Source of the DNA: Anaerotignum sp.
GTDB taxonomy: Bacteria > Bacillota > Clostridia > Lachnospirales > Anaerotignaceae
DNA length: 64,000 nt
Direction of reading: 5' to 3'
NCBI RefSeq assembly: GCF_030625865.1
Contig: NZ_DAOUQB010000002.1
Span: forward strand, 1 to 64,000
Made by a program: the position numbers and the translations under genes. This document shows, one piece after another, positions 21,541-62,791 of this stretch. Within the stretch, counting starts at the first letter, position 1. Every line of letters starts with the position of its first letter. Below the pieces are notes generated by a model. The model was not told the origin of the DNA and ran no database searches. It worked only from the letters and a program-made list of their open reading frames with translations.

Positions 21541-21761
21541 AATTGAAACCTTAGGAAAATATTGGGATAGAATATTTTTTTGAAGGGAACAATAAATGAT
21601 ATGAATATCATGATTTAAGATTCATCATCTTTGTTACGTAATTAGCTTATTGTTAGGTATTCATTTATTTGAGCCTTAATTTTTCCTTTGATTTGGAATG
21701 ACTTGTTGAGAAATGAGAAATATAGCTTTTGATTGGTTTAAAAAAGTTAGGAGGTTTTAAT

Positions 21762-22622
21762 ATGCTAGATGTTGCAATTATTGGCGGTGGACCCGCAGCC
21801 CTATCTGCTGCACTAAACTGTCGTCAGCGGAATAAAACGGTTTGTATTTTCGGAAGAAGCTTGGACAGTTCCTTATTATATGCCGCAGAAAAAGTGGATA
21901 ACTATTTGGGATTGCCGGATGTTAATGGAGAAGAGATGTTAAATCGTTTCTATTCCCATGCTGTAAAAAATGGGGTAGAGTTTCAGGAATGCCGTGTTAC
22001 CCAAGTTTTAAATGTTGGTGAGCATTATATGATTAATGCAGAGAATAATTTCATTGAAGCAAAAGCCATTATTTTGGCTACCGGACTTAGCAAAAGCAAG
22101 GGGATTTCCGGCGAGATGGATTATCTGGGTAAGGGCGTTAGTTACTGCGCAACTTGCGATGGGATGCTGTATCGTGACAAAAAGGTTGTGGTTGTGAGTG
22201 AAAACGAGGAAGGCGAAGCAGAAGCAAACTTTTTGGCAGATATATGTAAAGAAGTGATTTATATTCCGTTATATAAAAATATTCTATATCTGAAGGAAAA
22301 TGTGACGGTTTTGGAAGCAAAGCCCAAGGCAGTCATTGGCGGTGGAGATAAGCTAACAGCTTTGGAAACAGATAAAGATACAATAACTTGTGATGGTATT
22401 TTCTTTGCAAAGAATACCATGCCTCCGGATAGTTTGATTTTCGGATTAAAAACAGATGGTAAAAATATTGAGGTTGATCGGCATATGGCTACAAATTTAC
22501 CTCGTGTTTATGCGGCGGGAGATTGTACCGGTGCACCATACCAGATTGCCAAGGCGGTTGGGGAAGGTTTGGTTGCTGCGTTGTCCGCTGTTTCAGATAT
22601 CGACCAAATGAAGAAAGAATAA
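21762..22622 (+). CDS. Thioredoxin-reductase-like flavoprotein without recognisable NADPH site
   Basis: 286 residues from the ATG at 21762 (AGGAGG). FAD-binding VAIIGGGPAALSAAL at the N-terminus, redox pair in SYCATCDGMLY, and the second FAD motif VYAAGDCTGAPYQIAKAVGEG. The position of the usual NADPH motif GGGNSA reads VVVVSENEEGEAEANF, and the basic motif after it is also absent. It resembles pyridine-nucleotide-independent thioredoxin reductases such as the ferredoxin-dependent clostridial flavin type. That electron donor is inference. No thioredoxin gene is adjacent. Confidence 0.85.
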   Translation: MLDVAIIGGGPAALSAALNCRQRNKTVCIFGRSLDSSLLYAAEKVDNYLGLPDVNGEEMLNRFYSHAVKNGVEFQECRVTQVLNVGEHYMINAENNFIEAKAIILATGLSKSKGISGEMDYLGKGVSYCATCDGMLYRDKKVVVVSENEEGEAEANFLADICKEVIYIPLYKNILYLKENVTVLEAKPKAVIGGGDKLTALETDKDTITCDGIFFAKNTMPPDSLIFGLKTDGKNIEVDRHMATNLPRVYAAGDCTGAPYQIAKAVGEGLVAALSAVSDIDQMKKE

Positions 22623-22650
22623 TAGACTCCCTCTAGGCATTACAAAGGAA

Positions 22651-22677
22651 TGGGGCAATATAAATGATATTGCCCCT
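22651..22677 (+). repeat. Left copy of duplicated terminator hairpin flanking mobile element A
   Basis: 27 bp containing GGGGCAATA, a 7-base AT loop and TATTGCCCC. Identical to 22894-22920. This copy is followed directly by the element and has lost its U-tract. Confidence 0.9.
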
Positions 22678-22893
22678 CAGGGTGTCGATAAAGTCGACAC
22701 CCTTTGAAAAAAGTTCAGTTCCTTCAAGCTTTTTTCAAGTTAGCAGAGGACAAATAGATGTGTTCCTGCGACCAAAAGGTCTTGAAACGCCCTATTTTCC
22801 TCGGATGGGCAAAGCTCATCCTGCGGATTCTACTTGGGGAACTTTTCGTTTCTATGCCCTTTCGTTTTATAAAATAGGTTTGTCTACAGTCTG
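22678..22893 (+). mobile_element. 216-bp hairpin-rich MITE-like element, copy A
   Basis: It begins CAGGGTGTCGA and ends with the reverse of CAGACTGTAGA, an imperfect terminal inverted repeat (CAGnnTGTnGA). A second copy lies inverted at 32033-32249 and is about 90% identical by eye. Internal stems include GGGTGTCGA/TCGACACCC, GACCAAAAGGTC and GGATGGGC/GCTCATCC. The open frame crossing it is not conserved between copies and has no SD, so it is non-coding. The exact borders are set by the 27-bp duplication on both sides. Confidence 0.85.
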
Positions 22894-22925
22894 TGGGGCA
22901 ATATAAATGATATTGCCCCTGTTTT
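22894..22925 (+). terminator. Terminator of the flavoprotein gene, right copy of the duplication
   Basis: The same 27-bp hairpin as 22651-22677, here followed by GTTTTTTG, so it retains the U-tract of what was presumably the ancestral terminator. Confidence 0.82.
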
Positions 22926-23171
22926 TTGGGAACCCTATTTTAATTTGTTTCCCAAAATGGGAATGCTTAGAGGGATTTTTATGTGCAATGAAATGAAGAA
23001 GAGTGAAAATCCAAAGGGGATGAAAATCCTGATTTTCCTAATTATTTTTAGTCAAAGATGGAATTTTAAGAAAAATGAAGTAAATATGAGTAAAAATTGA
23101 TAAATGCATTGATTTCTAGAAAATTTATAGTAATTAAACCAATTTTGGCATAAAATAACTGAATATAAAAT
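22926..23171. other. Intergenic region upstream of groESL
   Basis: It holds one more hairpin (TTTTGGGAA with TTTCCCAAAA, around 22924-22957) and AT-rich sequence. I see no coding frame. Confidence 0.5.
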
Positions 23172-23210: not shown

Positions 23211-23237
23211 TCAGCACTCGATAACGATGAGTGCTAA
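23211..23237 (+). promoter_or_regulatory. CIRCE operator (HrcA binding site)
   Basis: TCAGCACTC, a 9-bp spacer, then GAGTGCTAA: one mismatch from the consensus inverted repeat. It sits between the -10 box and the groES SD, so HrcA-mediated heat-shock repression is expected. hrcA is not in the window. Confidence 0.96.
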
Positions 23238-23262: not shown

Positions 23263-23550
23263 ATGAAACTTTCACCATTAGGAGATAAGGTTGTATTAAA
23301 GCAGTTGGAGGCAGAAGAAACAACAAAATCAGGGTTGATTTTAACATCTCAGTCCAAGGAAAAGCCCCAAGAGGCAATTGTTGTTGCGGTAGGCCCTGGA
23401 GGTATGGTTGGGGATACAAAGGTTGAGATGGTGCTGAAAGAAGGGGATCATGTTATTTTCTCCAGATACGGCGCAATGGAAATCAAATTTGATGGCGAAG
23501 AATATCTGGTTATGAGACAAAACGATATTTTGGCAGTAGTAAAAGACTGA
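23263..23550 (+). CDS. groES: Co-chaperonin GroES
   Basis: 95 residues. Family signatures are KLSPLGDKVVLKQLEAEE at the start, the mobile loop ETTKSGLILTSQSKEKPQEA, and GDHVIFSRYGAMEIKFDGEEY. It caps GroEL during folding cycles. SD AAGGAGG precedes the ATG; a CIRCE element lies upstream. Confidence 0.97.
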   Translation: MKLSPLGDKVVLKQLEAEETTKSGLILTSQSKEKPQEAIVVAVGPGGMVGDTKVEMVLKEGDHVIFSRYGAMEIKFDGEEYLVMRQNDILAVVKD

Positions 23551-23555
23551 TTTAA

Positions 23556-25199
<1,644 letters not shown>

Positions 25200-32003: not shown

Positions 32004-32032
32004 CAATGGTATTCATTTTTTGAATGCCATTT
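32004..32032 (+). repeat. Left copy of duplicated terminator hairpin flanking mobile element B
   Basis: 29 bp containing GGTATTCA, a T6 loop and TGAATGCC. It repeats at 32250-32279 with one extra T in the loop. The left copy runs straight into the element and lacks the long T-run. Confidence 0.88.
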
Positions 32033-32249
32033 CAGACTGTGGAAAAACCTATTTTATAAAATGGAAGGGCTTGGGAAACAAAGAGTTTCCCAAGTGGAAT
32101 CCGCAGGATGAGCTTTGCCCATCCGAGGAAAATAGGGTGTTTCAAGACCTTTTGGTCGCAGGAACACATCTATTTATTCTCTACTAACTTGAAAAAAGCT
32201 TGAAGGAACTGAGCTTTTTTTAAAGGGTGTTGATTTTATCGACACACTG
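32033..32249 (-). mobile_element. 217-bp hairpin-rich MITE-like element, copy B
   Basis: This is the reverse-oriented counterpart of 22678-22893, with ends CAGTGTGTCGA and CAGACTGTGGA. The differences from copy A are mostly transitions, plus a divergent patch where B has a perfect CTTGGGAAAC/GTTTCCCAAG hairpin. The core with CTGCGACCAAAAGGTCTTGA is unchanged. It is bordered by duplicates of the terminator hairpin of the upstream HD gene. Confidence 0.85.
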
Positions 32250-32285
32250 CAATGGTATTCATTTTTTTGAATGCCATTTTTTTTT
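32250..32285 (+). terminator. Terminator of the HD gene, right copy of the duplication
   Basis: AATGGTATTCA with TGAATGCCATT and then a run of nine T. It retains the original U-tract downstream of the element insertion. Confidence 0.82.
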
Positions 32286-62544: not shown

Positions 62545-62791
62545 AAGAGCAAAAGACAGTGAAAAAGAGGAGTATGTATCGGATAATTGGCAGAGAGAAA
62601 GGGTCGTTGGCTGTAAACCCTTTTCAAGATATGATACGGAAGGTAGCTTTTGAGTTGTTTTGCCGAAGGTTTTTACTGTGTAGGCAAAAACGGTTGACCC
62701 CGTTAACGGTTGATGAGTGTCTGCCTTATGGGTAGAAATAAAGGTGGTACCGCGAGTTTTCGTCCTTTTTGGGATGAAAGCTCTTTTTTTG
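62545..62791 (+). promoter_or_regulatory. T-box riboswitch controlling valS
   Basis: The hallmark AGGTGGTACCGCG is at 62742-62754, followed by a terminator: GAGTTTTCGTCC with GGATGAAAGCTC and T7. Upstream lies a long stem I region with an AGTATG-type element. A GTA triplet at 62643-62645 is a possible Val specifier; I cannot fold it with certainty. Uncharged tRNA-Val should promote read-through into valS. Confidence 0.93.

Follow-up and report, generated by a model that had tools for sequence, protein, structure and literature searches.

A 216-bp miniature element in Anaerotignum lies between complete copies of its target stem-loop, probably through a borrowed IS1182-type transposase

How does a short non-coding element come to lie between two complete copies of the same hairpin, and which enzyme would have placed it there? 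The question is raised by a locus in the window, the whole 64,000-nt stretch of Anaerotignum sp. DNA analyzed here. At 22678-22893 (plus strand), a 216-bp non-coding element sits between two 27-bp stem-loops of sequence TGGGGCAATATAAATGATATTGCCCCT (22651-22677 and 22894-22920, plus strand), which are identical at 27/27 positions and spaced by exactly 216 bp. This arrangement, described in a first-pass annotation made from the letters alone, proved exact, as did the observation that only the right stem-loop has a T-run beside it (22922-22927, plus strand). The same annotation took the element for a mobile miniature element (MITE), the hairpins for its target-site duplication and terminators for its targets, and drew a link to insertion sequences (ISs) of the IS1202 and IS1549/IS1634 types.

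The insertion locus

The element begins with CAGGGTGTCGATAAA and finishes with TTTGTCTACAGTCTG. Its left terminal inverted repeat, CAGGGTGTCGATAAA (22678-22692, plus strand), and its right one, CAGACTGTAGACAAA in minus-strand reading (22879-22893), were compared with IS1182 ends; both follow CAGnnTGTnGAnAAA, matching the ends of IS1182-family insertion sequences. The left end also forms a palindrome with its own inverted copy (AGGGTGTCGA/TCGACACCCT; 22679-22703, plus strand). Matches to this palindrome alone (AGGGTGTCGAC-AAGTCGACACCCT-like) were recorded at C8:3661, C82:16371, and C15:16427 in the own genome, each read individually, and at 23 congener places counted by match extent; the one at C82:16371 itself resembles a terminator hairpin and adjoins a third type of MITE (L029). 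In each of the two flanking stem-loops, a perfect stem of 10 bp closes a loop of 5 nt, with arms at 22652-22661/22667-22676 on the left and 22895-22904/22910-22919 on the right.

The ORF listing contained no transposase ORF within the 216 bp. An 80-aa ORF (22664-22906) does run through the element, starting in the left hairpin and ending in the right one, and hence is not coding capacity of the MITE alone; it was rejected as an element gene since both its ends fall in the flanking hairpins. Group IIC introns also sit at terminators, and 216 bp is too small for a reverse transcriptase.

The insertion occupies the spacer between a thioredoxin-reductase-like ORF (21729-22622) and the groES and groEL ORFs (23263-23550 and 23571-25199), names that were read off the ORF translations; upstream of groES, 23214-23234 holds what we take to be a CIRCE-like inverted repeat. 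The 27-bp duplicated hairpin is nested in a larger structure common to congeners, whose outer stem (5' arm 22628-22641, 3' arm 22962-22975, plus strand) encloses the insertion site and is followed by T's, possibly as a terminator or structured RNA of the locus. Because it lies inside this larger shared structure, the duplicated hairpin is not necessarily what terminates the upstream gene, and the terminator at this locus is likely the outer structure. The T-run at 22922-22927 overlaps the next hairpin (22924-22939/22942-22957).

Across 22628-22975, seven congeneric genomes could be given a common fold of outer stem, two inner hairpins, and T-run; 7/26 predicted pairs showed two-sided changes, and the covariation term was +0.86, i.e., not favorable. 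The predicted structure may represent a small RNA or a branched terminator, interrupted by the MITE. In congener G002, the corresponding spacer measures only ~114 bases and is without the structure. When the groEL loci of the seven congeners were searched against Rfam (E up to 1), the two matches obtained scored far under the gathering threshold and neither lay at the spacer; a Rfam scan of the window at the gathering threshold returned a T-box leader (62550-62770; RF00230, 140.9 bits) and nothing else.

Copies, empty sites, and an IS1182-type partner

In its own genome (2.75 Mb, 84 contigs), the MITE gave 20 match rows, of which 13 exceeded 140 bases, and related DNA was present in 6/8 genomes of the genus and 24/58 of the family, bearing out its past mobility. 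Fourteen own-genome loci were inspected at their ends. Both ends were recognizable in 11 (L001-L011), while L012-L014 had one end missing. A duplicated stem-loop stood on both sides of 9/11 copies with both ends (L001-L008 and L010); the paired copies were 80-100% alike and the sequence differed between sites, as exemplified by AAATACCTGCCGTAAGGCAGGTATTT, CGGCGATTGAAAAACAATCGCCG, and AAGCGATAGCCTAAGGGGCTATCGCTT. Of the other two, L009 had unlike hairpins at its two ends, and L011 had no clear duplication. One of the nine, copy B (L008), is a second MITE within the window (217 bp; 32033-32249, minus strand), placed between a 29-bp hairpin on its low-coordinate side (32004-32032) and a 30-bp hairpin, longer by one T, on its high-coordinate side (32250-32279). 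Around the nine duplication-bearing copies, the gene on the left faced the element in 8/8 called cases and the one on the right in 6/7, as judged from coarse stop-to-stop ORFs, which fits insertion at gene ends.

The pattern recurred outside this genome. Among 25 further genus loci, mostly partial matches, the duplicated hairpin was found in L044, L045, L050, and L054 and in degenerate form in L049. From five other genera of the family, 20 MITE loci were chosen, of which 11 (L227, L229, L231, L232, L235, and L238-L243) had 23-33 bp repeats with at most 4 mismatches, two (L228 and L230) had a duplication with an indel, as seen by eye, and the remaining seven had no duplication or were truncated. 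L028, a further type of MITE (174 bp) that shares these ends but has another interior, also lay in a duplicated hairpin. The first-pass annotation had suggested looking for genomic copies without flanking duplications; most intact copies carry duplicated hairpins, and its reading was not refuted.

Hairpins that directly abut the element at most intact copies could also belong to the element itself, as variable ends, or could have stood in tandem before insertion, so that there would be no target duplication at all. Against this, the hairpin sequence changes from site to site, and empty sites hold a single hairpin at most. In Streptococcus canis, phage Javan87 has 1538 bp of an IS1182-type element, plus 26 bp, that phage Javan90 lacks, and the compared flanks of the two are identical at 700/700 and 875/875 bases (1575 in total). 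The hairpin AACCGCTCTCTTAATCGAGGGCGGTT is present once in the empty phage Javan90 and twice in the filled Javan87, which, given the identical flanks, identifies a true target duplication. At the locus of the window, six congeners (L200-L205) had neither the element nor a second hairpin copy, as judged by eye: G007 has a single AGGGGTATAAACATGAATGATGCCCCT, G001 no clear hairpin, and the others weaker GGG..CCC pairs. Tandem hairpins at empty sites, the other observation that would have spoken against the first-pass reading, were thus seen neither in Javan90 nor in these congeners. The base-exact empty and filled pair concerns an autonomous relative, the phage IS, and the MITE empty sites are species-level orthologues. 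For phage phiJH1301-3, no other matching record was found in the phage collection at megablast sensitivity. We consider element-borne or tandem pre-existing hairpins extremely improbable and rejected them on the Javan87/Javan90 pair and the six congener sites. The hairpins are target-site duplications, as first proposed.

The ends of the MITE pointed to an enzyme source. Congener G002 contains 11 copies of a 1484-bp IS1182-family IS with ends CAGACTGTCAAAAAA, whose transposase scored 374.8 bits against the IS1182 model NF033551 (cut-off 270) and exceeded the Pfam cut-offs of PF13751, PF05598, and PF01609. The partner IS is accordingly classed as encoding an IS1182-type DDE transposase. Ten G002 copies were inspected and 10/10 lay in duplicated hairpins, that of L084 having an indel of one base; the remaining copy, L077, has exactly the sequence of L075, flanks included. 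In L075, the last IS base is 1959 and the transposase stop, at 1969-1971, falls in the flanking hairpin, so that the last residues of the transposase are written by the target. Open frames of the G002 copies range from 474 to 518 codons. A MITE-bearing congener, G006, has an IS1182 remnant with its left end CAGACTGTCGAAAAAG directly after the hairpin AAGCCGCGATATTTTATCGCGGCTT. As a control in G002, four copies of another transposase element (580-aa frame), two of which have one flank in common, were without a duplicated hairpin by eye. No IS1182-type transposase was found in the 84 contigs of the window's own genome, including by Pfam DDE searches, and no relative was detected in the viral contigs scanned for the transposase. 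Solved structures, searched by sequence up to E 0.1, gave no match.

Long duplications are known for the IS1202 and IS1549/IS1634 families, on which the first-pass annotation had based its link, and a transposase of that type might be imagined to move the MITE. This reading is highly improbable, and the link found no support: the MITE ends compare as IS1182-type, IS1182-type elements duplicate hairpins likewise, and the G002 transposase reached 19.5 bits against the IS1634 model (cut-off 100), its best model being IS1182, on which ground an IS1634-type partner was rejected.

The element is short, non-coding, and multi-copy. Its terminal inverted repeats are shared with an autonomous element, which resides in congeners, and its target duplication is matched by empty sites, for the MITE at species distance only. 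In these respects it resembles bacterial MITEs moved in trans by IS transposases, with their IS-matching terminal inverted repeats and target duplications; unlike in those, the target duplication here is a complete stem-loop of variable length. Judged by its ends, the MITE is a non-autonomous relative of IS1182, not itself a member of that family.

Duplication length and symmetry among IS1182-type loci

We surveyed 104 IS1182-type loci: 80 from a scan of named genomes (the best 80 of 371 confirmed), 14 from phages or plasmids, and the 10 Chakrabartyella copies inspected in G002. Three loci lay outside the set, namely L210, for which no ends were identified, L221, truncated where its record stops, and L077, the duplicate of L075. 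Flanking direct repeats of at least 12 bp were present at 51/104 loci. A further 33 had candidate ends, some doubtful, and no repeat of at least 12 bp, 19/104 were without a recognizable end, and 1/104 had an indel. Repeat counts depend on the rule applied, being 33/80 for the named loci, 28 under a stricter end rule, and 51/104 in the widened set. Six of the 51 repeats were doubles, arising from copies retrieved a second time or from a single duplicated segment, which leaves 45 distinct duplications.

These 45 are 15-35 bp long, with both sides identical in 37/45, and their dyad lies exactly at the center in 41/45 and within 1 bp of it in the other four. Watson-Crick pairs made up 327/355 at the true dyad vs. 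21-35% at dyads shifted by 0.5-2 bp, and the outer seven positions held a mean of 6.4 pairs compared with 1.95 in shuffles (maximum 2.53 of 1000). Since the script takes the pair of candidate ends with the best repeat, it favors repeats, not palindromes. A fixed stagger is unlikely because the length of the duplication varies yet the duplication stays dyad-centered. Pairing persists beyond the duplication, from 0.69 at the first outside pair unevenly down to 0.26 at the eighth, in a profile whose input contains one spurious 1-bp record; the joints are hence not strictly at the outermost foot.

Among plasmid and phage relatives, with transposase identities of 36-59%, the pattern was found at 12/16 loci, including those of Rhizobium, Providencia, Sphingobium, Cetobacterium, and an Enterococcus element annotated as ISEfa7-family. 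The remaining four were L214 and L215, each with two different hairpins, L210 without ends, and L221, cut by the record end. At loci without a called repeat, a stem abutted the left end in 35/36 and the right end in 19/25, compared with 641/7900 random positions; counts became 34/35 and 15/21 after removal of five loci (L178, L182, L183, L186, and L189) that were repeat-less under the stricter rule and had a repeat otherwise. A different hairpin at each end was seen at 12 IS1182-type loci (L130, L132, L133, L136, L142, L146, L156, L161, L192, L195, L214, and L215), two of them on complete circular plasmids. Recombination between copies, chimeric assembly, or a second mode of insertion could explain these.

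The same element and partner might instead respond to a cue in the linear duplex of terminators, such as T/A-tracts, RNA polymerase pausing, or bent DNA, and cut it with a long and loose stagger, in which case the dyad would reflect no more than the symmetry of bidirectional terminators. A T- or A-run does adjoin 42/45 distinct duplications (a count alone, with no background rate alongside), the duplications begin with A in 34/45 and finish with T in 35/45, and the genes neighboring the own-genome copies mostly face the element. A loose stagger would not, however, center the dyad exactly in 41/45 while the length ranges from 15 to 35 bp, and we regard this reading as unlikely. The first-pass claim of terminator recognition stood in part, in that the targets are stem-loops and mostly terminator-like. 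Recognition of one hairpin sequence did not stand and is unlikely because hairpins differ between sites.

Structure-guided integration and its precedents

We consider it quite probable that an IS1182-type DDE transposase mobilized the 216-bp MITE in trans and joined it to a stem-loop or cruciform at the 5' feet. The transposase, supplied by an IS1182-type element, would act on the CAGnnTGTnGAnAAA ends of the MITE. Its target would be a stem-loop sequence, usually terminator-like, and the cue would be two-fold symmetry or an extruded cruciform, not sequence. Both element ends would join at the 5' feet of the stem-loop, one per strand, at points that are 15-35 bp apart along the duplex but next to each other at a cruciform base. 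Subsequent gap repair would copy the entire stem-loop and leave a complete hairpin on each side of the element, so that the hairpin itself would fix the duplication length. Joints would lie within the A/T-rich hairpin base, where a migrating junction would allow joining off the foot. The MITE is, in short, probably flanked by full hairpin copies because a borrowed enzyme cuts at the two feet of the hairpin.

REP-targeting IS elements are tied to particular repeat families; unlike theirs, the hairpin targets here differ from site to site. Parts of the hairpin-duplication pattern may be recorded already in IS reviews or in ISfinder, where some IS1182 members reportedly have 0-60 bp duplications and palindromic targets. 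In the present analysis, a palindromic duplication of 23 bp flanks an E. faecium element that bears an ISEfa7-family annotation. The available part of one study describes REP-targeting IS elements as associated with extragenic palindromes (PMC1525189). The listings available for ISPse1 (PMC3281130) and ISCaa15 (PMC3196728) give each a 4-bp duplication, from which the IS1182 family is heterogeneous.

The closest precedent is IS1272/TnSha1, an IS1182-family element of staphylococci that, according to the available sections of PMC4923244 and PMC5678879, targets hairpins, several of them terminators, with little sequence specificity, and removes or replaces the target hairpin without a target duplication. 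Its transposase gene is reported, in the available part of PMC4923244, to have no stop codon inside the IS. The elements described here resemble IS1272, as far as those sections describe it, in their family and hairpin targets, and the congener IS copy L075 likewise is without an internal transposase stop. By the same published description they differ in outcome, the whole hairpin being duplicated here, not lost, which departs from IS1272-type replacement. The available text of PMC5678879 includes duplication in a model figure, where it forms branch b and is drawn next to the replacement proposed for IS1272, with no example given there; the geometry of joining at the 5' feet followed by repair, as proposed above, corresponds to that branch as presented. 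Within the accessible portions of the open-licence literature, no report was found of whole-hairpin duplication as a rule. What is new here is the MITE together with the evidence for widespread, structure-measured duplication of whole hairpins; hairpin targeting itself has its precedent in IS1272.

The duplication made by a DDE transposase is generally held to have a length that enzyme geometry fixes. The 15-35 bp duplications, dyad-centered in 41/45, point to structure-guided integration. We lean, with less assurance than for the MITE itself, towards extending this to much of the IS1182 family, from Clostridia to Proteobacteria: DNA structure, not a constant of the transposase, would set the duplication length, joining would take place at the four-way junction of an extruded hairpin, and ISs and MITEs alike would use terminators as a safe harbor at gene ends. 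The loci collected here provide numerous natural examples of duplication, a branch left hypothetical by the IS1272 model in the sections available, and the mechanism may explain how elements spread at gene ends while a hairpin remains there.
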